Positions 1-11,528 of a DNA stretch of 11,528 nt are shown here, piece by piece (position 1 is the stretch's first letter; each line of letters begins with the position of its first letter). The position numbers and the translations under genes are program-made. Under the pieces are notes generated by a model. It saw nothing but the letters and a program-made list of their open reading frames with translations, was not told the DNA's origin and did not search any database. Origin of the DNA: Desulfobacteraceae bacterium (GTDB lineage Bacteria; Desulfobacterota; DSM-4660; Desulfatiglandales; Desulfatiglandaceae); assembly GCA_030589225.1 (NCBI GenBank), contig JAUUWD010000019.1:1-11528 (forward strand). The letters run 5' to 3'.

Positions 1-436
1 CTTCCTGCTTACAGTAGGTCTCCATCACCTGTACCTGATAACCCTGTCCTTTATAACCACTGTATGTTGCGTCAGGATCTGAAGGGTTCTGAAGAGAGTC
101 AGAAGGAATTTCTTTTGGCTTTTTCACTTCAACCGGATTCTTATCATCTGATACATTGACATTGCATTGTTCATTCAAAACGCGCTCAAGCAGTTTGTAA
201 CTATGCATAGCCTTGACTTCGGGATGATCTTTGAACTGCTGAACCAGATCAAAAAGATCAGCGCTAACTGAGGCAAGAGTTTTGGCCGATTCTGAAGGCT
301 TCACCATAGAAAAGCATTGCAGGGATTTTTCGGAAAGGTATTTCTCAATGATTCCTTTATCTACAGTATCAAATAGCTCTTTGTGCCCTCGCTTTAAGTT
401 GACCAGGAAGAAAAAAAGGAGACATGCGAAGAATAC
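1..436 (-). pseudogene. Transposase fragment (DDE type, IS1182/ISNCY-like), interrupted and cut by window edge
   Basis: Read on the minus strand, an open frame runs from a stop at 437-439 to the window edge. Its C-terminal visible part reads SDPDATYSGYKGQGYQVQ followed by VMETYCKQE. This is the pattern of the catalytic-core region of IS1182/ISNCY-like DDE transposases, where an Asp (here in the DPDA segment) precedes a GYKGQGYQ block. Upstream come a helical stretch with DTVDKGIIEKYLSEK and a charged linker. The family normally has a long N-terminal part before this. Here the frame degenerates into hydrophobic, non-transposase-like residues beyond about position 385 and then hits the stop, so the 5' part is missing or frameshifted. 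The only in-frame ATG inside (305-307) would remove the helical part. I infer a dead insertion-sequence remnant. The exact IS family is uncertain, and the C-terminal half lies outside the window. Confidence 0.7.
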
Positions 437-539
437 TTAACTTAGCCTCTCCTTTTGTGTTATTTAGTATCAAAGTCAAAGAGGAATTGAAAATTGAAGG
501 ATAGAAAAGAAAGCGGAGAAGGGACAGGCAAAAGAGAAA

Positions 540-746
540 ATGCGTTATGCGAACCAATTTGACCCATCCAAGTTGATCCGGGTCGCTTTATGCCCGATGG
601 TGAACGGTATAATTCCATTAAATAATCAAAGAGTTAACGACTTCAAGGACTTAGCCCCATTGAACGGCATAAAATTTGCGTATGACCTGTGTGCTGAGGA
701 GAATTTAAACCGGGAGATGATATTTACAACCGCTATTGGTTATTAG
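540..746 (+). CDS. Doubtful small ORF, 68 codons
   Basis: An ATG-started frame of 68 codons with product beginning MRYANQFDPSKLIRV. I do not recognise the product. It has no signal peptide or membrane segment, and only a weak purine run (AGAGA) lies upstream as a possible ribosome binding site. It contains two similar pieces (VNGIIPLN and LNGIKF), which may be a small internal duplication. It sits in gene-poor DNA next to a transposase remnant, so it may be a chance frame or the relic of an older gene. Confidence 0.2.
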   Translation: MRYANQFDPSKLIRVALCPMVNGIIPLNNQRVNDFKDLAPLNGIKFAYDLCAEENLNREMIFTTAIGY

Positions 747-783
747 CGATGTCAGTTGTCCGTTGAAATAAGAGGAAAACCAC

Positions 784-891
784 ATGATTCCAGAGAACTA
801 TCATTCCACTCTTTATATTCTTTTACTTGCAAGTCCTCAAAAATTCCGGGCTATGTTAGAAAAATCCCCCCTGGCCCAGACCTGGCCTTGA
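784..891 (+). CDS. Possible 35-aa small protein
   Basis: A 35-codon frame beginning MIPENYHSTLYILLLASP and ending in TWP before TGA. It is preceded by AGAGGAAA about five bases before the ATG, a better ribosome binding site than that of its larger neighbour. The product has a short hydrophobic stretch (LYILLLA) and a basic C-terminal half. No family is recognised, and the length is well within chance. Listed because the start signal is good. Confidence 0.2.
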   Translation: MIPENYHSTLYILLLASPQKFRAMLEKSPLAQTWP

Positions 892-996
892 TACGTTGCG
901 AGAGTGGCTGATCGAACATAACTGATTAATTATATTACGACATATGACCGAGGCAGATTGAAGTTCTACTGAATACTGATTTGAGGCTATGTAATT

Positions 997-2712
997 ATGA
1001 AAAGTAAGAAATCGGATGTGCCCTACAGTGGTACACCAGTTAATCTATTTGCGGATGCTGAACGTAGCGCTATACTAAAAGAAATAGCATTTAACATTCC
1101 GGATGTAATTTTGAAGGAACGACAGTTATGCGACCTCGAACTCCTGGCGACTGGAGCATTTTCACCTCTCGAAGGCTTTATGACCCGGGCTGATTATGAG
1201 TCTGTTCTTGACCGAATGCGCCTTCAGAGTGATCTCCTTTGGCCTGTCCCGATCTGTCTGGATATCTCTGATACCCAGGCTAAAATACTTGAAGCGGGCC
1301 AGTCTGTGGCGCTCAGGGATGCGGAAGGTTTTCTTCTTGCTGTTCTGCATATTGAGGATATCTGGGCTGTTGAAAAGGAAAAAGAGGCATCACAGCTCTT
1401 TGACACCCTGGATCGAAACCATCCTGGCGTTCTGTATCTCTTTGAAAACGGCAGTGACTGCTATCTGGGGGGGGAAATCGAGGTTTTGAGTTTGCCTCTT
1501 CACTCTGATTTCAAGCAGCTTCGGTTGGCACCAGAAGAAATTAAAGCCACTTTCAAGAGGCTCAGTTGGCAACGGATAGTGGGATTTCAGACAAGCAACC
1601 CGATTCACCGGCCCCAGTTGGAGATAGCCATCTCTGCCATGCGGCAGGCCAAAGCCAACCTGCTCCTTCTCCCCATTGCCGGTATGACAAAGCCGGGGGA
1701 TTTCGACCACTATACCCGCGTCAGGTGCTATCGCGCGGTAACCCACCGCTTGCCGCCGGATTCTTTTATCATAAACCTCTTACCCCTTGCCATGCGTATG
1801 GCAGGTCCAAGGGAGGCTATTTTACATTCTATCATCGCGAAAAACTATGGGTGCACTCATTTTGTTGTAGGACGAGACCATGCAAGCCCCGGCTCGGATA
1901 GTCACGGAGAGCCCTTTTATGAAAGTGACGCAGCCTGCAAACTCACTGAAAAATTTAGCGAAGAACTGGATCTGAGCATTGTTCGTTTTGAGGAAATGGT
2001 CTATCTGCCTTTTGAGGATGAATACCGGTCGATAGATAAGGTGCCGGATGGGATGCAGACCATCTCTCTTTCCGGGTCTGATATTAGGGAGCGAATACGT
2101 ACAGGCCGGCGGATCCCCGAATGGGCCACCTTTCCGGAAGTCACTGATGAACTTCTCCAGGCCTATCCGCCGCCTCGAAAGCAGGGGCTTACGGTTTTTC
2201 TGACCGGGCTTTCAGGTTCCGGGAAATCCACCATTGCCAAGGTGCTCCTGTCTCGATTCCTTGAAATAGGGGATCGCCCGGTCACTCTATTAGATGGAGA
2301 CATTGTCCGTCAAAACCTGTCCAGGGAGTTGGGGTTTTCCAAAGAGCACCGAGACATCAACGTTAGCCGCATTGGCTATGTGGCAAGCGAGATTACAAAG
2401 AACAGAGGTGTTGCGATTTGCGCGCCCATTGCTCCTTATGAAGCCACAAGGGCGGGGATAAGGTCCACCATAGAAGCTTACGGAGGATTCATCGAAGTTC
2501 ATGTGTCCACGCCCATTGAGGAGTGTGAAAAACGAGATAGGAAAGGGATGTACGCCAAGGCCAGGGCAGGACTTATTAAGGGGTTCACAGGCGTGGATGA
2601 TCCATACGAGGTTCCCGTTTCCCCTGAGGTGCGCATCGACACCACGGATCTCACTCCGGACGAGGCAGCCCAGGAGGTCCTTCTGTTCTTGGGGCAGAAA
2701 GGATATATATAG
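997..2712 (+). CDS. Bifunctional sulfate adenylyltransferase / adenylylsulfate kinase; sulfurylase half has altered active-site motif
   Basis: 571 aa, cytosolic, the usual length for fused ATP-sulfurylase/APS-kinase. Domain order: N-terminal PUA-like domain (about 1-165), ATP-sulfurylase catalytic domain (about 170-395), APS kinase (about 400-571). The kinase half looks intact: P-loop GLSGSGKS at 404-411, then DGD, the CAPIAPYE segment and AKARAGLIKGFTG. It should phosphorylate APS to PAPS, the sulfate donor of sulfotransferases. The sulfurylase half keeps GMTKPGDFDHYTRVRC and GRDH (292-295). However, the family motif QxRNPxHxxH reads QTSNPIHRPQ (198-207), with Arg to Ser and the second His to Gln, so ATP-dependent APS formation may be lost. 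A GAGG precedes the ATG by 10 bases. The stop codon TAG is completed by the first base of the MITE-like element. Without that insertion the protein would end three residues later (YLG). Context, upstream of GDP-mannose and UDP-glucuronate genes, suggests supply of PAPS for polysaccharide sulfation (inference). Confidence 0.9.
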   Translation: MKSKKSDVPYSGTPVNLFADAERSAILKEIAFNIPDVILKERQLCDLELLATGAFSPLEGFMTRADYESVLDRMRLQSDLLWPVPICLDISDTQAKILEAGQSVALRDAEGFLLAVLHIEDIWAVEKEKEASQLFDTLDRNHPGVLYLFENGSDCYLGGEIEVLSLPLHSDFKQLRLAPEEIKATFKRLSWQRIVGFQTSNPIHRPQLEIAISAMRQAKANLLLLPIAGMTKPGDFDHYTRVRCYRAVTHRLPPDSFIINLLPLAMRMAGPREAILHSIIAKNYGCTHFVVGRDHASPGSDSHGEPFYESDAACKLTEKFSEELDLSIVRFEEMVYLPFEDEYRSIDKVPDGMQTISLSGSDIRERIRTGRRIPEWATFPEVTDELLQAYPPPRKQGLTVFLTGLSGSGKSTIAKVLLSRFLEIGDRPVTLLDGDIVRQNLSRELGFSKEHRDINVSRIGYVASEITKNRGVAICAPIAPYEATRAGIRSTIEAYGGFIEVHVSTPIEECEKRDRKGMYAKARAGLIKGFTGVDDPYEVPVSPEVRIDTTDLTPDEAAQEVLLFLGQKGYI

Positions 2713-2731
2713 TGCCTGAACGAAAACCCCG
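2712..2731 (+). repeat. Left terminal inverted repeat of the MITE-like element
   Basis: GTGCCTGAACGAAAACCCCG, preceded by TA. Its first base is the G of the upstream gene's TAG stop codon. Confidence 0.8.
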
Positions 2732-2965
2732 GTCAGGCACGATTTTGGATTTTAGATTGCGGATTTTGGCCTGCCCTCTCCGTCCCGAGACCGGGACGGG
2801 ATCGGGAGGCGCGACTTATTAGGTTCGAACCTGGCGACCCGATATTTAGTTCATTGAATGATCCGTTTTTGATGCCCCGGATAACCAGGCCTGGGCCAGG
2901 GAGTCAAAAAAGAAAACAATCTCAGTGCGTTGAAAATTTCCGGGTAAAACCGGAAAACCATATTT

Positions 2966-2985
2966 CGAGGTTTTCGTTCAGACAC
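2966..2985 (-). repeat. Right terminal inverted repeat of the MITE-like element
   Basis: CGAGGTTTTCGTTCAGACAC, followed by TA. It matches the left end in inverted orientation at 18 of 20 positions. Confidence 0.8.
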
Positions 2986-3031
2986 TATTTAGGGTAACCA
3001 CACAAAAAATTATACCTGGAGGGTAAAAAGA

Positions 3032-4420
3032 ATGCTTCATGCAGTAATACTGGCAGGAGGAAGCGGAACACGGTTTTGGCCTCTCAGTCGCGAGAAGATG
3101 CCAAAACAGTTGCTCCACATACTCGGGGATCGAAGTATGCTCGCCATGACCCTGGATCGGGCATGTGCCCTGGTACCTGAAGAACGGATTTGGATCGTTA
3201 CCACGCGTTCTCAGGCAAGCGAGATAAAACAGGAACTCCACACACTCCATTTAGAAAAGCTCCAGGTAATCGAGGAGCCGGCCGGCCGAAATACGGCTGC
3301 AGCTATTGGTCTTGCTGCTGTACGAATCCATCAAAATGATCCCAAAGGTGTCCTGGCGGTTTTACCTGCTGACCACCATATTGAGGAGAAGGATCGCTTC
3401 CTTGAACTGTTGCACGCTGGTAAAAGGGTGGCTGAAACGGGATGGCTGGTGACCCTGGGTATCAGCCCAACAAGGCCGGAGACAGGATATGGATACATTT
3501 GGAAGGGTAGCCGTATAGACTCATTAGATCTAAGCAACCTCGAATTTGATGTCTTTAAAGTCTCCCGATTTACTGAAAAACCAGATCAGGAGACGGCGGA
3601 GGAATATTTACGCTCCGGAGACTTCTTTTGGAACAGCGGGATTTTCCTGTGGCGAGCAGATCAATTCATGGATGAGATGAAAAGATCCCTTCCTGAGCAT
3701 TACAGGGGCTTGATGGAGATTGGTTCCCTTGGTGATTTTTCCTCAAATCCGGATCGGGTGGAGGAGATCTACGAGGGGCTAACAGCCGTTTCAGTGGACT
3801 ACGGGATAATGGAACATTCGGACAAAGTGGCTATGATCCCCGCCAGCGTTGGATGGAGCGATGTGGGGAGTTGGGCGGCCTTGAGGGAAATTAGTGAGAA
3901 GGACCTGAACGGTAATGTGGTAAAGGGGAATGTTCTGGCTGTGGATAGTCGAAATTCCCTGCTTTATGGTCAGGATCGTCTGGTTGCTGCCCTGGGGTTG
4001 GAAGGATTGGTTGTTGTAGACACTCCAGATGCAGTTTTGGTATGTCGCGAAGATATGAGCCAGGACGTGCGGAAGATTGTAAAGCAATTGCTCGATGAAG
4101 GAAGAGATGAGGCCCTGGTGCATAGGGAAGTGCTCAAGCCATGGGGTGCATATAAGATGCTGGATCGTGGGGAAGCATACCAACTGGGTTGGCTGGATGT
4201 GTTGCCGGGGGAACAGTTAAGTTTGAAAAACCATATACACAGGTCTGCTCACTGGATTGTCGTGGCTGGTACAGCTACGGTGACGTTTAATGACAGGGTT
4301 GTAGATGTGTTCTGCGGAGAGCATATACGTGTCCCTGAAGGGAGCCTGCATCGAGTTGAAAATAAGGGGAGTGAAAAACTCCGAATGATTGAAATACAAA
4401 CGATGTCAGTTGTTAGTTGA
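3032..4420 (+). CDS. manC: Mannose-1-phosphate guanylyltransferase (fused to a diverged type II phosphomannose isomerase cupin domain)
   Basis: 462 aa, cytosolic; forms GDP-mannose from mannose-1-P and GTP. The N-terminal nucleotidyltransferase domain (about 1-285) has the signature GGSGTRFWPLSRE at the start, then EEPAGRNTAAAIGLAA, LPADHHIE, GYGYIWKG, FTEKP, FFWNSGIFLWRA and SVGWSDVGSWAAL, so this half looks intact. The C-terminal cupin (about 365-458) begins LKPWGAYKMLD but departs from the usual type II isomerase motif [20 protein letters not shown]. Here the segment is LSLKNHIHRSAHW then IVVAGTA, with Gln to Lys and the cupin Glu to Ala; two His remain (H401, H403). The usual C-terminal tail (GEDDI..YGR type) is absent, replaced by TMSVVS. 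I expect guanylyltransferase activity and doubt isomerase activity. A GGAGG lies about 10 bases before the ATG. Before the MITE insertion, the upstream stop would have been 34 bases away, implying an original operon. Confidence 0.92.
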   Translation: MLHAVILAGGSGTRFWPLSREKMPKQLLHILGDRSMLAMTLDRACALVPEERIWIVTTRSQASEIKQELHTLHLEKLQVIEEPAGRNTAAAIGLAAVRIHQNDPKGVLAVLPADHHIEEKDRFLELLHAGKRVAETGWLVTLGISPTRPETGYGYIWKGSRIDSLDLSNLEFDVFKVSRFTEKPDQETAEEYLRSGDFFWNSGIFLWRADQFMDEMKRSLPEHYRGLMEIGSLGDFSSNPDRVEEIYEGLTAVSVDYGIMEHSDKVAMIPASVGWSDVGSWAALREISEKDLNGNVVKGNVLAVDSRNSLLYGQDRLVAALGLEGLVVVDTPDAVLVCREDMSQDVRKIVKQLLDEGRDEALVHREVLKPWGAYKMLDRGEAYQLGWLDVLPGEQLSLKNHIHRSAHWIVVAGTATVTFNDRVVDVFCGEHIRVPEGSLHRVENKGSEKLRMIEIQTMSVVS

Positions 4421-4478
4421 TCGTTGTCAATATATTGAAACTTGACATAACTTCTACAATACAAAAACGGAGCTTATT

Positions 4479-5795
4479 ATGAGAATTGTACTTATTGGAA
4501 CTGGATATGTGGGCCTGGTGTCCGGGGCCTGTTTGGCGGAGTTTGGCCATCATGTTGTGTGCGTAGATAAGGATCAGGACAAGATCGCTTCTCTGAAACA
4601 GAGGATTGTTCCAATATACGAACCCGGATTGAACGATATGGTCGAGAGAAATGTCTCACAAAGCAGGCTTTTTTTCACTACGCATCTTGAAGAGGCGGTT
4701 GGGGAGGCCGACGCCGTTTTTATCGCTGTAGGAACACCATCGTCAAGAAGAGGAGACGGTTACGCAGATCTCACTTATGTTTATGAGGCGGCCAGGGAAC
4801 TGGCTCCCTTTCTGAAGGCCTATACTGTAGTGGTAGATAAGAGTACGGTCCCGGTCGGGACAGCACGTCAGGTGAAGCGGCTGATAAAAGAGGCGAATCC
4901 GGATGCAGATTTTGACGTGGCCTCGAACCCTGAGTTTCTCCGTGAAGGGGCTGCTATTAGTGATTTTATGCGTCCTGACCGCGTTGTGATTGGCGTGGAC
5001 AGTGACCGTGCTGCGGATGTTCTCAAAAGGGTTTACCAGCCGCTTTATCTGATTGAAACACCCATGGTGATTACAGGGCTCGAAACAGCAGAGCTAATCA
5101 AATACGCAGCTAACGCCTTTCTGGCCACCAAGATAAGTTTCATCAATGAGATGGCAAACCTTTGTGAGGCAGTGGGAGGAGATGTGGTGGGGCTGGCCAA
5201 AGGTATTGGGTTAGACGGTCGAATCGGGAAGAAATTCCTGCATCCCGGGCCGGGATATGGTGGTTCGTGCTTTCCTAAGGATACCCTTGCATTGATCCGG
5301 GTTGCACAGGAGCATGGCTCTCCCTCTCGAATTGTGGAAACAGTAGTAGAGGTGAACGCGGCCCAAAAGGCCAGGATGATCTGGAAGATTCGTAATGCGC
5401 TGGGCGGAAGCGAAGCAGGTAAGACAATTGCCGTGCTGGGGCTTACGTTTAAACCTGAAACTGACGATATGAGGGAGTCGCCTTCATTGACGGTATTGCC
5501 AGCCCTCGTTGAGAAAGGAGCGATTGTTAGGGCCCATGACCCTCAGGGGATGTCTGCTGCCGAAAAATTAATGCCTGAATTACAATACTTTGATGATCCG
5601 TACGAAACTTGTATAGATGCAAGCGGGGTTGTTCTTATGACTGAGTGGAACCAGTATCGAGCTCTCGATTTGAAGAGAATCAAAGATTTGATGAAAGATC
5701 CCATTTTCATTGACTTGCGGAACGTCTATGATCCGAAAACCATGTCTGAGCTTGGTTTTTCTTATACGTGTGTGGGGAGAGCGAACGGATCGTAA
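4479..5795 (+). CDS. ugd: UDP-glucose 6-dehydrogenase
   Basis: 438 aa, normal family length, cytosolic. It oxidises UDP-glucose to UDP-glucuronate with two NAD+, a precursor of acidic polysaccharides. The N-terminal Rossmann domain starts at residue 1 with GTGYVGLVSGACLAEFGH and an acidic residue after the second strand (VCVDKD). The substrate and central domain includes DKSTVPVGT, SNPEFLREGAA, the conserved Lys segment ETAELIKYAANAFLATKISF and the catalytic-Cys motif GPGYGGSCFPKD (Cys264). The C-terminal domain has GLTFKPETDDMRESPS. All expected catalytic residues are present. A CGGAG sits eight bases before the ATG. The gene follows the guanylyltransferase by 58 bases in the same direction, so co-transcription is likely. 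Unlike its two upstream neighbours, nothing in it looks degenerate. Confidence 0.95.
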   Translation: MRIVLIGTGYVGLVSGACLAEFGHHVVCVDKDQDKIASLKQRIVPIYEPGLNDMVERNVSQSRLFFTTHLEEAVGEADAVFIAVGTPSSRRGDGYADLTYVYEAARELAPFLKAYTVVVDKSTVPVGTARQVKRLIKEANPDADFDVASNPEFLREGAAISDFMRPDRVVIGVDSDRAADVLKRVYQPLYLIETPMVITGLETAELIKYAANAFLATKISFINEMANLCEAVGGDVVGLAKGIGLDGRIGKKFLHPGPGYGGSCFPKDTLALIRVAQEHGSPSRIVETVVEVNAAQKARMIWKIRNALGGSEAGKTIAVLGLTFKPETDDMRESPSLTVLPALVEKGAIVRAHDPQGMSAAEKLMPELQYFDDPYETCIDASGVVLMTEWNQYRALDLKRIKDLMKDPIFIDLRNVYDPKTMSELGFSYTCVGRANGS

Positions 5796-5867
5796 AGGCT
5801 TGAGGCTGAAGGCCAGTTGCCGGTTCAGGGTTTGAAATGATGTTTCAGCTTGGTAAGGCGAACAATA

Positions 5868-7538
5868 ATGAAACATGAAAAAAAGACAGAAAAACAACTC
5901 ACTGATGAACTGGAAGCCCTGCGCCAACGGGTAACCGAGTTGGAGGTATTGGAAGTAGAAAGGAATCGGACAGAGGAGGCCTTGAGGAAGGCAAATACTT
6001 TTCTCAAGAATATATTGGACAGCTCATCTTCCATTTCCATTCTCTCTACTGATCTTGAAGGCAATGTGCTGTTCTGGAATACGGGTGCAGAAAACATATT
6101 TGGATATAAGGCTGATGAAATGGTCGGCCGGCAAAAAATAGATATTCTATATTCTGATGATGAAACAAACAAGGTAACAAAGGAACTCAGTGCATCATTG
6201 TTGAAGGATGGGGAGGGAAAAAGTTGCGAAATTAAAGAAAGAACAAAAAATGGGCGCGAACTTTGCATACACCTGACATTAAGCCCCAGGTTCGATGAGA
6301 ATGGTGAAATTGTGGGAATCCTGGGGATTGGTGAAGATATCACTGAACGCGTGCAGGCGGAAGAAGCGCTCAAAACCAGCCAGGAAAAACTCTATCAGGC
6401 ACAGAAGATGGACACTCTTGGGACCTTAGTTGCTGGTATGGCCCATGAGATCAACAATCCCATCAACCTGATTATGTATAATATTTCTCTTTTTCAGAAG
6501 GTCTGGCATGATTGCTTACCTGTTCTGAACCAATATGGAGGCAAAGAACCCGGTAGAAAGTACGGTGGCTTGACCTATGATTTTTTAGAAGAAAATTCAG
6601 ACCGGCTGCTTTCCGATATGGATATGGCTGCAAATCGGGTGGCCAAGATTGTAAGCGACCTTAAGAACTTTGCCAGGCAATCAAATGTTGTCGATAAGAG
6701 TTCCATGCAGATTAATACGGCAGTGGAAAATGCTTTGCGACTGGCTCAAACCAGCCTTCGGAAGTCAGGAGTTGAACTGGAAGTTGATCTTGCCAGTGAT
6801 CTTCCTTCGCTGAAAGGGAATCTCCAGAATATTGAACAGATAATTTTGAATTTAGTCATAAACGCTGTCCAGGCGATAGATCACGACCAGGGAGTGGTCA
6901 GGATTGCCACCGGATTTCAGAATAAGGATAGACGAATATTCGTTTCAATAACGGACAATGGCTGTGGTGTTGCCCCGGACATCTCTGATAAGCTTTTTGA
7001 TCCATTTGTTACTGATAAACAGGCTGAAGGAGGCACGGGACTTGGCCTTTCTGTAACATACAGCTTGGTCAATGCTCATGACGGAGAGATTGTTTTCCAG
7101 AGCCAAAAGGGAAAGGGAACAACCTTTACCGTGTTTTTTCCTACCGTTGTTAAAGAAGCAACAGGCAGGATTCTTGTTGTGGACGATGATAAATCGATTC
7201 GGGATATGCTGACAAAAGCACTTGCCGAGGCAGGGCCTTACCTGGTGGAGGAGGCGTCCAATGGAATAGAGGCCTGCATCAAGCTCGGGACATATCGCCC
7301 GGACCTTCTCATTTTAGATATGTTTATGCCCGAGATGGATGGCCTCGAGGTCTGTCGCACAATAAAGTCGGAAACTGAGTTTTCCGATATGAATGTGATT
7401 ATTACCACCGGATTTCCAGATCACCAGAAATTGAAAGAAGTTGCAGCATTGGGTTTTGACAGGATACATTACAAGCCTTTTAATTTACCGGATTTTCTTA
7501 AGGCAGTCAGCAATATTTTCAGCCAGGGTTTACCCTAA
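5868..7538 (+). CDS. Soluble PAS hybrid sensor histidine kinase with C-terminal receiver
   Basis: 556 aa from the ATG at 5868, which has AAGGCG seven bases upstream. A TTG at 5850 would add six residues but has no better start signal. Order: N-terminal charged coiled coil (about 1-45), PAS domain (about 45-165, ending GIGEDITERVQAEEAL), HisKA dimerisation domain with H-box GMAHEINNPIN (phospho-His about 193), HATPase_c with N-box NLVINAVQAI, G1 DNGCGV and G2 GGTGLGLSVTYSLV, then a receiver starting RILVVDDDKS. The receiver has its phospho-acceptor Asp about 484 (LILDMFMPEMDG), the TT switch residues (IITTGF) and Lys (YKPF). No transmembrane segment or signal peptide is visible, so it senses a cytoplasmic cue through PAS; the ligand is unknown. 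It is followed in the same direction and same frame by a sigma54 regulator, its likely partner. Its TAA stop lies within the left arm of a large inverted repeat. Confidence 0.92.
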   Translation: MKHEKKTEKQLTDELEALRQRVTELEVLEVERNRTEEALRKANTFLKNILDSSSSISILSTDLEGNVLFWNTGAENIFGYKADEMVGRQKIDILYSDDETNKVTKELSASLLKDGEGKSCEIKERTKNGRELCIHLTLSPRFDENGEIVGILGIGEDITERVQAEEALKTSQEKLYQAQKMDTLGTLVAGMAHEINNPINLIMYNISLFQKVWHDCLPVLNQYGGKEPGRKYGGLTYDFLEENSDRLLSDMDMAANRVAKIVSDLKNFARQSNVVDKSSMQINTAVENALRLAQTSLRKSGVELEVDLASDLPSLKGNLQNIEQIILNLVINAVQAIDHDQGVVRIATGFQNKDRRIFVSITDNGCGVAPDISDKLFDPFVTDKQAEGGTGLGLSVTYSLVNAHDGEIVFQSQKGKGTTFTVFFPTVVKEATGRILVVDDDKSIRDMLTKALAEAGPYLVEEASNGIEACIKLGTYRPDLLILDMFMPEMDGLEVCRTIKSETEFSDMNVIITTGFPDHQKLKEVAALGFDRIHYKPFNLPDFLKAVSNIFSQGLP

Positions 7539-7614
7539 CGTTGCATAAAATCTGTCGACAAAAACCGTTTCACTCTAACGCATTTTTGTTCGAAGTTTTA
7601 TGCAACGTTAGGGT
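7532..7614. repeat. 83-bp palindromic element: 19-bp perfect inverted repeat between kinase and regulator
   Basis: ACCCTAACGTTGCATAAAA (7532-7550) is perfectly inverted as TTTTATGCAACGTTAGGGT (7596-7614). The 45-base interior can pair further (CGACAAAAACCGTT near 7556 against AACGCATTTTTGTTCG near 7577, imperfectly), so the RNA could form one long hairpin. The kinase stop codon (7536-7538) is in the left arm. No U-run follows, so it is not a classical terminator. It might be an RNA processing or stability element that tunes kinase against regulator levels, or a small mobile palindrome. The outer ends CCCTAAC and GTTAGGG resemble integron attC core sites (RYYYAAC...GTTRRRY) but fail the outermost base on each side. 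Confidence 0.8.
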
Positions 7615-7640
7615 TAAGACTCTTGGAAGGCTATTTAACT

Positions 7641-9035
7641 ATGGAATCTATTCCCGACAATCATACCCCGATCCTTGTTGTTGATGACGACGTAGGTCTC
7701 CTTTCGAGTATCAAGGCCACCCTTGTCAGTTCGGGCATTCCTGAGCCAGTCCTTGTTTCTGATAGCAGGCGTGTCATGGACTTGGTCAGGGAGCACCGTT
7801 TTATGTTAGTTTTTTTGGACCTTGTCATGCCTCACATAAATGGTATGGAGGTCCTTCAACAAATAAAGAAGGAGTTTCCGGAAATAGAATGTGTGATTGT
7901 GACAGCCACTGACGATGTCTCCTCCGCAGTTCAGGCCATGAAATATGGCGCATATGATTATCTCGTCAAACCACTCAACAGTGAAAAGCTTATTATAGTC
8001 ATCAATCGTGCCCTTGAGAGATATAACTTGCGACAAGGCCTGGCGCTTTTTGAAAAAAAGCAATCATTTTCAGACCTAAAAAACCCCCAGGCTTTTACTG
8101 ATATGATAGCAGAAGATGAGTCAATGGCATTAGTATTTCATCAGGCTGAGTCTGTTGCTCCCACCGATTACAGTGTTGTCATTTCTGGGGAATCCGGGAC
8201 CGGCAAGGAGATGCTGGCTCGTATAATACATGATTTGAGTAATCGTTCAAATGGTCCTTTTTTTGCAGTAAATATGGGCGCTTTTAGCAGAACGCTTTTT
8301 GAAGATGAATTCTTTGGCCATACCAAAGGGGCCTATACAGGTGCTGTGAGCGAAAAAAAAGGCTTCTTTGAGGCTGCGCGGGGTGGCACGCTTTTTCTGG
8401 ATGAGATAACTGAACTTGAACCATCGCTGCAAGGTAAACTCTTGAGAGTCCTGCAGGAGAGTGAGCTATACCGTCTGGGGAGCACAAGGCTTGAGAATGT
8501 TGACGTTCGAATTGTGGCAGCCACAAACCGTGACATTAACGGGGAAATTGAAGACGGGCGTTTTAGGGCTGACTTGTTTTATCGGCTAAATATGTGCCAT
8601 ATAAAGGTGCCACCGCTCAGTGAACGAAAAAAAGATATCTTGCCGCTGGCCCGCCATTTTTTAAAGATACACGCATTGAAAAATGAGAAGGAAATTGATT
8701 CATTGAGTCAGGATTTGGCTGGCCGTTTATTAGAATATCCCTTCCCGGGTAATGTTCGCGAACTGGAAAATATCATGGCAGCCGCAATACTCCTGGAAAA
8801 GGGGAAGGCCCTGACTTTATCTTCAGTTAGTGCCCTGTTAGCTAATTCAGAACCAGGCCAGGGATGTAATCAGGAACTCATTACCCTGTCAGAGCTGGAA
8901 AAGTTGCATATTCAGAAGGTGCTTGAGGCAATGAATGGAAATCGAACACGGGCTGCAAAAATCCTGGGTATTGGCTTGAGAACGCTCCAGAGAAAAATAA
9001 AAATATTCGGTGCATTACCAACTGCGCCAATGTGA
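7641..9035 (+). CDS. Sigma54-dependent response regulator, NtrC family
   Basis: 464 aa from the ATG at 7641 (GGAAGG ten bases upstream). A TTG at 7623 would add six residues. Order: receiver (about 10-125) starting ILVVDDDV, with phospho-acceptor Asp60 (LVFLDLVMPHINGME), switch Thr in IVTATDD and Lys in YLVKPL; then the AAA+ sigma54-interaction domain (about 155-385) with Walker A GESGTGKE (183-190), the sigma54-contacting loop GAYTGA (230-235, a common variant of GAFTGA), Walker B GGTLFLDEI and arginine-finger region RFRADLFYRLN; then a Fis-type helix-turn-helix (about 420-460, NRTRAAKILGIGLRTLQRK). All residues for ATP-driven remodelling of the sigma54 holoenzyme are present. It lies directly after the hybrid kinase. 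About 210 bases beyond its stop is a well-matched sigma54 promoter, its most obvious local target (inference). Confidence 0.94.
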   Translation: MESIPDNHTPILVVDDDVGLLSSIKATLVSSGIPEPVLVSDSRRVMDLVREHRFMLVFLDLVMPHINGMEVLQQIKKEFPEIECVIVTATDDVSSAVQAMKYGAYDYLVKPLNSEKLIIVINRALERYNLRQGLALFEKKQSFSDLKNPQAFTDMIAEDESMALVFHQAESVAPTDYSVVISGESGTGKEMLARIIHDLSNRSNGPFFAVNMGAFSRTLFEDEFFGHTKGAYTGAVSEKKGFFEAARGGTLFLDEITELEPSLQGKLLRVLQESELYRLGSTRLENVDVRIVAATNRDINGEIEDGRFRADLFYRLNMCHIKVPPLSERKKDILPLARHFLKIHALKNEKEIDSLSQDLAGRLLEYPFPGNVRELENIMAAAILLEKGKALTLSSVSALLANSEPGQGCNQELITLSELEKLHIQKVLEAMNGNRTRAAKILGIGLRTLQRKIKIFGALPTAPM

Positions 9036-9054
9036 CGCATGGTACGTCATTTTT
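9033..9054 (+). terminator. Probable intrinsic terminator overlapping the regulator stop codon
   Basis: TGACG (9033-9037) pairs with CGTCA (9045-9049) around a 7-base loop, followed at once by five T. An outer TGCGC/GCGCA pair around it may add stability. The stem is short, so termination may be partial. It would insulate the regulator transcript from the sigma54 promoter downstream. Confidence 0.5.
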
Positions 9055-9243
9055 GCGCACAAACGCTAACCTATTGAAATAGCGTATAGAAACTTAAGGA
9101 ACTGTACAGAATGGTATGCCGTAATGACGCAGTATTCTAACCTCATATAGCTTCCCTTACACGCATGTTTTCCTTCCCGGATTGGCATTCTCTAACCATT
9201 TGTAATTATAAACTAAATTAGGCTGTCCAGCCATTGCAGCGAT

Positions 9244-9260
9244 TTGGCACGGTTTATGCT
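9244..9260 (+). promoter_or_regulatory. Sigma54 (-24/-12) promoter driving the riboswitch leader
   Basis: TTGGCACGGTTTATGCT matches the consensus TTGGCACG-N4-TTGCT with one mismatch in the -12 box. The invariant GG (9246-9247) and GC (9258-9259) are separated by exactly 10 bases. Transcription would start near 9271 and run through the c-di-GMP riboswitch into the gene at 9631. The 200 bases upstream, where an enhancer-binding protein would bind, contain short dyads: ACGCTA/TAGCGT near 9063-9085, CTGTACAG near 9103, and GGCTG/CAGCC just upstream of the promoter. I cannot say which is an operator. Confidence 0.8.
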
Positions 9261-9323
9261 GTTTTCTAATGCAGTGCAGACACTTTCCATACTGCCGAGA
9301 GTGTTATACGAACAAAGGTGCTA

Positions 9324-9431
9324 ATGCGTGAAAACAAAAAGGCGAAAGACAATATCTCACAGTCATGTTTGTTTGACGCAATTAGGGATCAGGCCCAAGA
9401 GCCTGTCAGGGGGATTAGCCTTCTATATTAA
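9324..9431 (+). CDS. Possible 35-aa leader ORF between promoter and riboswitch
   Basis: ATG with AAAGG five bases upstream, 35 codons, stop 9429-9431, ending about 15 bases before the riboswitch. The product starts MRENKKAKDNISQS, then CLFDAIRDQAQEPV, with a basic N-terminus and an amphipathic middle. No family is recognised. It would be translated from the sigma54 transcript ahead of the riboswitch, so ribosomes could influence leader folding, but this is speculation. It may be a chance frame. Confidence 0.3.
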   Translation: MRENKKAKDNISQSCLFDAIRDQAQEPVRGISLLY

Positions 9432-9444
9432 TTAGACACATATC

Positions 9445-9532
9445 GAACGAAAGGGCAAAACCGTCAAAAGACGGTGACGCAAAGCCACGGGTCTAAAGCC
9501 GGAAGGATATGATCGCCGGGCTACCGAAGGTT
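9445..9532 (+). promoter_or_regulatory. Cyclic di-GMP-I (GEMM-I) riboswitch aptamer
   Basis: The core is clear: AGGGCAAAA, then hairpin CCGTC-AAAA-GACGG, then the nearly invariant linker GACGCAAAGCC. Next come the second hairpin ACGGGTCTAAAGCCGG through ATATGATCGCCGGG, which carries a CTAAAG...ATATG pattern like the 11-nt tetraloop receptor, and finally the closing GCTACCGAAGG. These match the GEMM-I pattern (GGGCAAA...GACGCAAAGCC...CCG) in order and spacing. The P2 loop is AAAA rather than the usual GNRA (GAAA), a small deviation at the tetraloop docking contact. An intrinsic terminator follows directly, so control is probably by transcription termination. I cannot see from the sequence whether c-di-GMP turns expression on or off. 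GEMM-I switches commonly control motility, pili, matrix and surface-protein genes, which fits the exported proteins downstream. Confidence 0.93.
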
Positions 9533-9533
9533 A

Positions 9534-9580
9534 TTAAAAAAAACGCCTTTGAGTGTGTATGCTCAGAGGCGTTTTTTTTG
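9534..9580 (+). terminator. Strong intrinsic terminator, expression platform of the riboswitch
   Basis: A run of A leads into AAACGCCTTTGAG, a 7-8-base loop, then CTCAGAGGCG and eight T. The stem is about 13 pairs with one G-U wobble. It lies just after the aptamer and about 50 bases before the ribosome binding site of the gene at 9631. Both its position and strength fit a riboswitch-controlled terminator. Confidence 0.9.
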
Positions 9581-9630
9581 TGGGGAATAGGTTTCTAAAA
9601 ATGGGATCGCAAAAGAAAAGGAGAAATCAG

Positions 9631-10452
9631 ATGATGAGCTTTAAGAAGTGCATCGGATGTTCTGTCATTGCACTGCTTTTCTGCTTTGTAACACCATGCC
9701 ATGCCATGGATATAACCCTTGCCTGGGATGCTAACACCGAACCTAATCTGGCCGGGTATATGATTTATTATGATACCGATGGTAGTGGCGAACCATATGA
9801 CGGCACAGGGGCAATGGAAGGTGGCTCGCCAATAGATGTGGGAAATGTAACGGAATTCACACTGAGTGACCTGTCAGATGGCGAAGTTCATTTTTTCGCT
9901 GTTACTGCCTATAATGATGAAGGGCTTGAAAGTGGTTATTCCAATGAGGTGGATGCCCTATCAATTAGCTTGTTCCAGGGTTCGAACCTAATCTCCTTAT
10001 ACAGACAACCTGGAGATACAGATATTGCATCGGTATTGAGCTCCATTTCCGGCAAATACACAAGTGTGTGGGCCTTTATAGATAATACTTGGAAGGCCTA
10101 TGATCCAGTAAATCCCGGTTTCAGCGATTTGACGACCATGGAGGCTGGAAGGGGTTACTGGGTTGAGATGAATGAATCCGCAACAATGATTGTGGCTGGT
10201 TTGGTTCCATCGAATTCCACTGACCTTATAAATGGTTCGAATCTGGTGGGGTATAATTCGGCCAGTTCCCGGGATATAGCTGATGCTGTTGCATCAATTG
10301 AAGGGCAGTGTGTGTCTGTATGGGCCTTCATAGAAGGTAGTTGGAAGGTGTATGACCCTGCCAACCCTGGATTCAGCGATCTGACGACAATGGAGCCAGG
10401 TTATGGTTACTGGATTGATGTCTCAGAGGCATGTGTATGGAATGTGCCATAA
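9631..10452 (+). CDS. Exported protein with one FN3 domain and a duplicated Trp/Tyr-rich module, c-di-GMP riboswitch-controlled
   Basis: 273 aa from the ATG at 9631, preceded by AAAGGAG at seven bases. Longer frames starting near 9553 lie in the terminator and are rejected. Residues 1-25 are a signal peptide with a basic n-region, hydrophobic core and cleavage after CHA. An FN3 domain (about 26-110) opens MDITLAWDANTEPNLAGY and has YFAVTAY-like strand FFAVTAYNDEG and YSNEV. Then come two copies of a module of about 68 residues (113-180 and 197-264) with shared GSNL, SVWAFI, W-K-YDP, NPGFSDLTTME and G-GYW. The C-terminus is a short tail without membrane anchor, LPXTG or PEP-CTERM motif. It is likely secreted or periplasmic, perhaps a matrix or adhesion component; the module's function is unknown to me. 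It is the first gene after the sigma54 promoter, riboswitch and terminator, so expression should need the regulator and the riboswitch decision. Confidence 0.88.
   Translation: MMSFKKCIGCSVIALLFCFVTPCHAMDITLAWDANTEPNLAGYMIYYDTDGSGEPYDGTGAMEGGSPIDVGNVTEFTLSDLSDGEVHFFAVTAYNDEGLESGYSNEVDALSISLFQGSNLISLYRQPGDTDIASVLSSISGKYTSVWAFIDNTWKAYDPVNPGFSDLTTMEAGRGYWVEMNESATMIVAGLVPSNSTDLINGSNLVGYNSASSRDIADAVASIEGQCVSVWAFIEGSWKVYDPANPGFSDLTTMEPGYGYWIDVSEACVWNVP
9967..10170 (+). repeat. First copy of the Trp/Tyr-rich module (protein-level duplication)
   Basis: Encodes residues 113-180, with GSNLISLY, SVWAFIDNTWKAYDP and NPGFSDLTTMEAGRGYW. The best-conserved half is the C-terminal one, shared nearly word for word with the second copy. 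Confidence 0.8.
10219..10422 (+). repeat. Second copy of the Trp/Tyr-rich module (protein-level duplication)
   Basis: Encodes residues 197-264, with GSNLVGYN, SVWAFIEGSWKVYDP and NPGFSDLTTMEPGYGYW. It is offset by 84-85 residues from the first copy. Confidence 0.8.
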
Positions 10453-10501
10453 GCTGAAACATGAGCTTAGGCGGTTTTCTTGGAATATTTTAGTTTGCAG
10501 T

Positions 10502-10519
10502 TACCCAGTTTCGATTGGG
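10502..10519 (+). promoter_or_regulatory. Small UUCG-capped hairpin in the intergenic leader
   Basis: ACCCAGT-TTCG-ATTGGGT forms a 7-bp stem with one G-U pair and a UUCG loop. It lies in the 95-base gap between the two exported-protein genes, about 15 bases before the second gene's ribosome binding site. No T-run follows, so it is not a terminator. It could stabilise or process the mRNA. A weaker TAAGCT/AGCTTA stem sits at the first gene's stop codon. Confidence 0.35.
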
Positions 10520-10547
10520 TGGAAATGATGCCAAAAGGAGGGATCAG

Positions 10548-11528
10548 ATGATAAGGTTTAGGAAGTACTTATGGTACTTTACAATTTTATTTGTATTTTT
10601 CTTCTCCACTGTGGCTGAGAGCGCAATCCCTCTGCCTGCGAGGATTTACGGCACAGTAACGGTTGATGGGACAGTGCTAACCCAGGATACCGATGAAGGC
10701 TATACATTCGAGGTGACCCGGGAGGACGGAACCTCATATGTGCCTGCGGCCGAACTTACAGATGGGCTCAATTTTTATGATGGATATGGTATAAATGTGC
10801 CGCTTTATGACGCAGACGATCAACCAGAAGGAGCGAATCCGGGCGATACAGCCGTAATTCATGTTTACAAAGACGGTTCGGAATTGTCTGTTATGTCTCC
10901 TGTCAGTGGGCAATTTACAGTGGGAGAGGGTGGTTCTTTCAATCACATTAACCTTTCTGTTATTTCGTCCCAACCTGCACAGTACCAACTGACTGCTATT
11001 GTAGTCGGTGGTCATGGAACGGTCTCTCCCACAAGTGGTACCTATGATGAAGGGACTGTAGTAACGCTAACCGCTGATCCGGATACTGGCTATCGAGTCG
11101 AGGACTGGAGCGGAACTGACAACGACGGATCCAAAGTTAATACAAACACTGTAACAATGAATTCCAATAGGAGTGTTACAGTCCAATTCGAAGAGGTACC
11201 GGCGACACAGTACCAATTGACTGCCACAGTAACAGGTGGTCATGGTACTATTTCCCCCACAAGCGGGACCTATAGTGAAGGAACAGTGGTAACATTAACC
11301 GCTGCTCCGGATACTGGCTATCGTGTGGTGTCCTGGAGCGGAACAAATAATGATAGCTCCACTGCTACTACAAATACCGTAACAATGAATTCCAACAGGA
11401 GCGTCACGGTTCAATTTGAAGAGATTCCCGCCACGCAATACCAGTTAAGCGCGAGAGTAGCTGGTGGTCATGGTACTATTTCCCCCACAAGCGGCACTTA
11501 TAATGAAGGAACTGTAGTAACAATAACT
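10548..11528 (+). CDS. Exported protein with 76-aa tandem InlB-B/Listeria-Bacteroides-type repeats, partial (3' end outside window)
   Basis: Open from the ATG at 10548 (AAAAGGAGGG seven bases upstream) through the window end: 327 codons, no stop. Residues 1-26 are a signal peptide (basic MIRFRKY, then a Phe-rich hydrophobic core, cleavage near ESA). An N-terminal domain (about 27-140) begins ARIYGTVTVDGTVL and has EVTREDG, INVPLYDADD and a strand-rich pattern; it resembles the small carboxypeptidase-regulatory/Ig-like domains of surface proteins but is not firmly assigned. From residue 145 come tandem 76-residue repeats: QYQLTA, GGHGTISPTSGTY, EGTVVTLTA, PDTGYRV, WSGT, NTVTMNSNRSVTVQFEE. Two are complete and a third begins. 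The pattern is that of the InlB B-repeat / Listeria-Bacteroides repeat (Flg_new-like), found in secreted and surface proteins. It is probably co-transcribed with the preceding gene, and so under the same sigma54 and c-di-GMP control (inference). Confidence 0.88.
   Translation, partial: MIRFRKYLWYFTILFVFFFSTVAESAIPLPARIYGTVTVDGTVLTQDTDEGYTFEVTREDGTSYVPAAELTDGLNFYDGYGINVPLYDADDQPEGANPGDTAVIHVYKDGSELSVMSPVSGQFTVGEGGSFNHINLSVISSQPAQYQLTAIVVGGHGTVSPTSGTYDEGTVVTLTADPDTGYRVEDWSGTDNDGSKVNTNTVTMNSNRSVTVQFEEVPATQYQLTATVTGGHGTISPTSGTYSEGTVVTLTAAPDTGYRVVSWSGTNNDSSTATTNTVTMNSNRSVTVQFEEIPATQYQLSARVAGGHGTISPTSGTYNEGTVVTIT
10980..11528 (+). repeat. Tandem repeat, exact period 228 bp (76 codons), at least 2.4 copies
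   Basis: Copies begin at 10980 (CAGTACCAACTGACTG), 11208 (CAGTACCAATTGACTG) and 11436 (CAATACCAGTTAAGCG), a period of exactly 228 bases. Many differences are at third codon positions (for example the ISPTSGTY and MNSNRSVTVQFEE blocks), so the protein repeat is conserved more than the DNA. The array continues beyond the window. Confidence 0.95.

Follow-up and report, generated by a model that had tools for sequence, protein, structure and literature searches.

Candidate serial control of exported-protein genes by a sigma54 promoter and a c-di-GMP riboswitch in a Desulfobacteraceae bacterium

Promoters read by sigma54 do not fire unless an activator is present, and GEMM-I riboswitches sense cyclic dinucleotides after initiation. 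The two can meet in a protein, as FleQ, FlrA and VpsR are activators that bind cyclic di-GMP (c-di-GMP) themselves. Here we consider a stretch of 11,528 nucleotides from a Desulfobacteraceae bacterium (the window; positions 1 to 11,528, forward strand, of contig JAUUWD010000019.1, assembly GCA_030589225.1), in which a -24/-12 promoter and a GEMM-I aptamer lie in series ahead of genes for exported proteins. As with FleQ, FlrA and VpsR, c-di-GMP and a sigma54-type activator would converge on one surface or matrix gene, but the target of the ligand would be the RNA, once transcription has begun, rather than the protein. The aptamer is of the same family as the c-di-GMP-I/cyclic GMP-AMP (cGAMP) riboswitches of Geobacter, which, within the same wider group, precede genes for electron transfer and the cell surface, although the parts of these accounts consulted do not link them to sigma54 promoters (PMC2700814, PMC6456294). 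The promoter and its neighboring regulator resemble sigma54 regulons of the bacterial exterior in G. sulfurreducens and D. vulgaris, where, in the consulted parts of the sources, NtrC-type activators and -24/-12 promoters stand ahead of genes for the cell exterior and for biofilms (PMC2725144, PMC4641369, PMC3162934). Unlike in the present locus, riboswitches and c-di-GMP are absent from the main text of PMC2725144 and PMC4641369 as far as it was available, and the portion of PMC3162934 considered names c-di-GMP solely in connection with one class of activators. The largest numbers of sigma54 activators are found in Desulfobacteria (PMC12316311), and in the part of that paper seen, the word riboswitch occurs just in a reference title. 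No earlier description joining sigma54 promoters to c-di-GMP riboswitches was recognized in the open-access literature, itself covered in part, a scope outside which most subscription papers lie.

The first-pass annotation of the window had listed an NtrC-type regulator gene, a correctly spaced -24/-12 promoter, a GEMM-I aptamer, a strong terminator and an exported-protein gene in a single orientation; each of these was recovered on the forward strand (Table 1), the aptamer limits given then (9445-9532) being off by a few bases. The promoter has the GG-N10-GC spacing in a YTGGCACG-N4-TTGCW context, agrees with 12 of 13 scored positions and is identical at 16 of 17 positions to TTGGCACGGTTTTTGCT, the RpoN consensus reported for G. 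sulfurreducens in the consulted part of PMC2725144. It is the sole match in the window to TTGGCACGGTTTWTGCT at up to three mismatches, where 0.06 would be expected and 11 of 200 window shuffles contain one; weaker -24/-12-like strings (10-11 of 13) occur within genes at 6251 and 6418 on the forward strand and at 2428 on the reverse strand. In the sister genome (locus L032), whose regulator is 98% identical, the promoter and the preceding 33 nt are unchanged, even with a leader some 130 nt longer. The third sequence in the promoter alignment (L116) is uninformative on the promoter because it comes from a different neighborhood. The aptamer reads GGGCAAA, in which we take the relevant base to be G20, presuming a mapping under which G marks the c-di-GMP type and A the cGAMP type. 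A G20A variant binds cGAMP according to the part of PMC6274999 consulted. Directly 3' of the aptamer follows a hairpin with a T run (fold z -4.5 for 9430-9583), which a simple terminator scan did not pick up; pairing of the T run into the stem may be the reason.

Table 1. Features of the regulator-to-riboswitch region and the adjoining genes in the window.
Feature	Position	Strand	Basis
Hybrid histidine kinase (PAS, HisKA, HATPase, receiver)	5850..7538	+	Pfam matches
NtrC-type sigma54 activator (response regulator)	7641..9035	+	Pfam Response_reg, Sigma54_activat and HTH_8, each above cut-off
Candidate activator-binding dyad, TGACGCA-N3-TACGTCA, 6 of 7 pairs	9033..9049	+	Dyads at the same position in L032, L034 and L037
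Candidate second dyad, TATGCCG-N3-TGACGCA, degenerate, 82 bp past the first	9115..9131	+	Read by eye; dyad scan did not list it
Sigma54 (-24/-12) promoter TTGGCACGGTTTATGCT, GG-N10-GC; start expected near 9271	9244..9260	+	Consensus match; conservation in L032
c-di-GMP-I (GEMM-I) aptamer, RF01051	9444..9528	+	79 bits against a cut-off of 35, E 1.3e-14, full length (model positions 1-87)
Candidate antiterminator, 9525-9531 pairing with 9545-9551 (7 bp)	9525..9551	+	Folding of partial transcripts
Intrinsic terminator hairpin with T run	about 9535..9580	+	Folding; present also in L032 and L117
Exported FN3-like protein, 273 aa, first gene past the switch	9631..10452	+	Homologues; 91% identity in L032/L117
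Exported protein with InlB B-repeats (PF18998), runs off the contig end	10548..11528	+	Pfam; 84% identity in L032

The pairing of promoter and aptamer recurs among relatives. Of 116 GEMM-I aptamers in 61 relatives, those with 150 nt or more of upstream sequence, 115 in all, were scored (L019, with 61 nt, was dropped); four matches below the cut-off (G036:C267, G055:C264, G037:C206, G058:C1:1363427) are omitted from this set. The score runs over 13 positions of what we take to be the sigma54 consensus, with GG and GC obligatory, and a strong site is one on the aptamer's strand that scores at least 10 and lies no more than 250 nt ahead of it. This consensus agrees with that in PMC2725144. Sites scoring at least 10, 11 and 12 precede 28, 20 and 7 of the 115 aptamers, compared with 2, 0 and 0 on the reverse strand, means of 1.8, 0.3 and 0.03 in dinucleotide shuffles, 2, 0 and 0 of 113 at 500-750 nt upstream and 2, 0 and 0 of 111 downstream. 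By tally, the 28 strong-site loci are spread over 19 genomes and 15 genera. Control leaders from the same genomes reach a score of 10 in none of 30 cobalamin riboswitches (taken from more than 150 matches) and none of 28 thiamine pyrophosphate riboswitches (of 29 matches), with two of each kind scoring 9. A phylum sample of 65 additional aptamers was taken non-randomly from the top of a list that covers the phylum in order of aptamer score (25 loci and a further 40 from those that follow). Of these, 24, in 21 genomes, have a strong site, compared with 2 when the reverse strand is scored and an average of 1.1 in shuffles. Strong sites occur with either base at putative position 20 (relatives, 18 of 68 with G and 8 of 33 with A; phylum sample, 16 of 46 and 8 of 16; the remainder other or unreadable). 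The parts, their order, spacing and conservation, and the enrichment of the pair in relatives can be read directly from the sequences, and on these grounds the serial wiring of promoter and aptamer is well supported. A third sample comprised 20 aptamers from copy-rich genomes lower in the ranked list, one of them (L366) unusable with too little upstream sequence; putative position 20 is A in 11 of the 19 others.

Strong sites also go together with genes for FN3-type proteins. Assignment used an FN3 profile built from 23 seeds, which replaced a letter pattern that had missed several proteins; since the seeds come from the tested loci, the comparison is partly circular. Excluding loci with less than 300 nt downstream left 112, 64 and 18 loci among the relatives, the phylum sample and the third sample. 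In the relatives, a strong site precedes 11 of 13 FN3 genes compared with 15 of 99 other loci (Fisher p 9e-7), and in the phylum sample 13 of 22 compared with 11 of 42 (p 0.015), while the third sample holds no FN3 genes and has a strong site at 1 of its 18 other loci; pooled, the counts are 24 of 35 and 27 of 159. The two FN3 misses among the relatives are L005, whose site scores 9, and L117, with a perfect site more than 250 nt away, so that counting both, post hoc, would give 13 of 13. Nine FN3 loci in the phylum sample are without a site of at least 10, six of them scoring 7 or less, and there is thus no strict promoter-FN3 rule. Ten proteins downstream of strong-site loci lacking FN3 were scanned, which gave PEP-CTERM in four and, once each, the small subunit of a NiFe hydrogenase, a sigma54 activator, a prepilin-type N-terminus, a PilZ domain, a sub-threshold cytochrome match only, and no match.

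The regulator gene in front of the promoter encodes a receiver, a Sigma54_activat AAA+ domain and a Fis-type helix-turn-helix; its translation contains GESGTGKE and GAYTGA, which we take to be the Walker A and GAFTGA-like loop motifs. Its orthologues occupy 80 loci (L032-L111), and a match to the hybrid kinase, its candidate partner, is found at more than 45% identity in 27 of these. The dyads at 9033 and 9115 are candidate binding sites for the regulator, and in L034 and L037 two dyads with related half-sites, 80 bp apart, lie at the same place behind the regulator gene. The order regulator, promoter, GEMM-I aptamer, FN3 gene, which the first-pass annotation had proposed seeking in related genomes, was found in the sister genome; L029 (35% identity) and L112 (31%, the activator 1.2 kb from the aptamer) show it with different activators. 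Ignoring receiver-only matches, 10 of 28 strong-site loci have an activator-type gene close by on the upstream side (within about 1.5 kb, either strand), as do 3 of 87 others (L005, L017, L117). Strong-site loci searched up to 6 kb upstream have one in 1 of 24 cases (L112), and 15 control loci without a site have one in two, both at a distance of 2.3 kb and on the opposite strand; this control set omits L314, the flank of strong-site locus L145. Among 25 phylum loci, an activator is near in 3 of the 12 with a site and in 1 of the 13 without.

Taken together, the region likely forms a serial element with two locks, an activator-dependent sigma54 promoter followed by a c-di-GMP aptamer and terminator. 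For promoter use, activator identity, ligand binding and switch sign, we infer the following. Sigma54-RNA polymerase would stay closed at the promoter until opened by an activator, most likely the neighboring NtrC-type protein, which would be phosphorylated via the adjacent kinase and bound at the two dyads. The leader RNA would then fold into the c-di-GMP-I aptamer, whose ligand state would decide whether the terminator forms ahead of the FN3-like and InlB-repeat genes. Of the two-signal gate put forward in the first-pass annotation, the serial coupling of promoter and aptamer holds up, through the sequence itself, its conservation in the sister genome and the same-strand enrichment, whereas the terminator does not carry over to many FN3 relatives, where the platform looks translational. 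Inspection by eye shows, in many of these, a stretch behind the aptamer whose bases complement the ribosome site. In each of the 18 FN3-set loci that were folded, most of that site is paired (unpaired fraction 0 to 0.35), whether the outer aptamer stem was forced or forbidden. These two features point to a translational expression platform in the FN3 relatives, in place of the terminator of the window. In L013, L026, L029, L118, L252 and L272 the layout behind the aptamer is conserved and, unlike the terminator of the window, includes a CACCTCC-like stretch able to pair with the ribosome site.

The sign of the switch is less clear. We lean only slightly toward activator AND NOT c-di-GMP, with the ligand promoting termination, since the candidate antiterminator occupies the 3' edge of the aptamer, which it links with the 5' arm of the terminator. 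The opposite sign, in which c-di-GMP would prevent termination and both signals would be required, an AND gate as the first-pass annotation had supposed, is a serious possibility that falls somewhat short of an even chance. Matrix genes are commonly raised by c-di-GMP, which would fit such a gate. It would also match a Geobacter GEMM-I reporter that was turned on by ligand via an antiterminator (PMC6456294, in the part consulted). Against it, ligand would oppose an antiterminator that shares the aptamer's 3' edge, though in the predicted folds this antiterminator, with a probability of about 0.9 in partial transcripts from 9430, drops to at most 0.10 once the leader from 9272 is included. The forced and forbidden stems in the FN3-set loci (19 loci, of which L251 was skipped) did not separate the ligand states.

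Alternatively, promoter and riboswitch could both be real while the promoter answers to a different sigma54 activator of the cell and the adjacent NtrC-type protein controls something else. This is unlikely, though it keeps some weight from the 18 of 28 strong-site loci without an activator gene in the near flank, the 23 of 24 without one up to 6 kb, and the 12 Sigma54_activat matches in the genome, nine of them strong. The paired dyads that follow the regulator in the window as well as in L034 and L037, with related half-sites and about 80 bp apart, argue for the neighboring regulator instead, as does the conservation of the regulator, kinase, FN3 and InlB genes as neighbors in L032 and L034.

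Several results weigh against serial control by the neighboring regulator, or limit its reach. In the third sample only 1 of 19 usable aptamers has a strong site, so the pairing is not universal; the coupling is frequent in some of the phylum but seldom seen elsewhere in it, and the copy-rich sample may include Geobacter-type bacteria. The regulator was rejected as the conserved unit, as a GEMM-I aptamer stands directly behind it in just 2 of the 80 orthologue loci (L032 and L034); the recurring unit consists of the promoter and the aptamer, in many cases together with an FN3 gene. At L034, whose regulator is 74% identical, no site of score 10 was found before the aptamer. In the window, promoter and aptamer are 183 nt apart, longer than in most strong-site relatives (29-200 nt), which leaves space for another promoter, and a terminator scan between the regulator gene and the aptamer gave just one weak candidate (9408-9424), so that read-through from the regulator gene could feed the riboswitch. 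Riboswitch RNA might then come from such read-through or start at a sigma70 promoter within the long leader, with the -24/-12 site playing a minor part, and a TATATT-like string noted by eye just before the aptamer would suit a sigma70 start. We regard this as rather improbable, because the scan lists no sigma70-type pair between promoter and aptamer, the pair at 9182-9209 is upstream of the sigma54 site with its first hexamer altered in L032, and sigma54 sites are enriched before GEMM-I aptamers. That the -24/-12 site is a chance match is very improbable despite the shuffled windows that hold one, given its exact match to the tested core, its position and strand, its conservation in L032 and its recurrence across genomes and genera.

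On the forward strand, the window carries genes for ATP sulfurylase/APS kinase and for proteins of the mannose-1-phosphate guanylyltransferase and UDP-glucose dehydrogenase types, followed by the hybrid histidine kinase, the NtrC-type regulator, the leader and the two exported proteins. The signal peptide of the FN3-like protein was assigned by eye, and its own FN3 match is sub-threshold (20.9 against 25 bits, Pfam), while many homologues have PF00041. The InlB-repeat gene is probably the second gene of the same unit. The source genome is a draft, 65.7% complete, which encodes rpoN and two GGDEF matches; the nearest named relatives of the regulator are from Desulfobacteraceae and Deltaproteobacteria metagenome-assembled genomes, and the host appears to be a relative of sulfate reducers. 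Between the kinase and regulator genes lies a long, nearly perfect inverted repeat (7532-7614, fold z -10) that has diverged partial copies elsewhere in the genome and resembles a small dispersed repeat; it may separate the two transcripts.

Other arrangements were seen around GEMM-I aptamers. The second aptamer of the source genome (L002, G000:C323) is without a sigma54 site within 250 nt, and by eye the protein encoded behind it resembles PilM-type pilus proteins. Tandem aptamers, two or three in a row, occur in L337 (377-962), L143, L151, L170 and L171. In L034 the FN3 orthologue (5487-6394, 57%) is preceded by a sigma54-like site of score 10 without an aptamer, and the aptamer there precedes an InlB-repeat gene. 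A GEMM-I aptamer lies 5 kb before the regulator in L065, and L072 has a sub-threshold match. In L027, L144 and L145 a sigma54 site and an aptamer precede a sigma54-activator gene, and a further activator gene lies upstream, an arrangement that may form a cascade.

Judged by sequence, the parts of this locus are ordinary and their recurrent combination is uncommon. With moderate confidence, we propose that a large part of the phylum (Desulfobacterota, going by the names of the relatives) carries a recurrent class of sigma54 promoters in series with cyclic-dinucleotide riboswitches, often with an activator gene of their own alongside. These would mainly precede genes for exported FN3-type and PEP-CTERM proteins, in some genomes those of sigma54 activators, and would place a phosphorelay and a second-messenger checkpoint on one transcript. 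The loci collected here form a list in which AND and AND NOT logic could be tested directly. If the coupling is habitual, many surface-protein genes would be under two-signal logic, of which promoter surveys and riboswitch surveys would each catch half.

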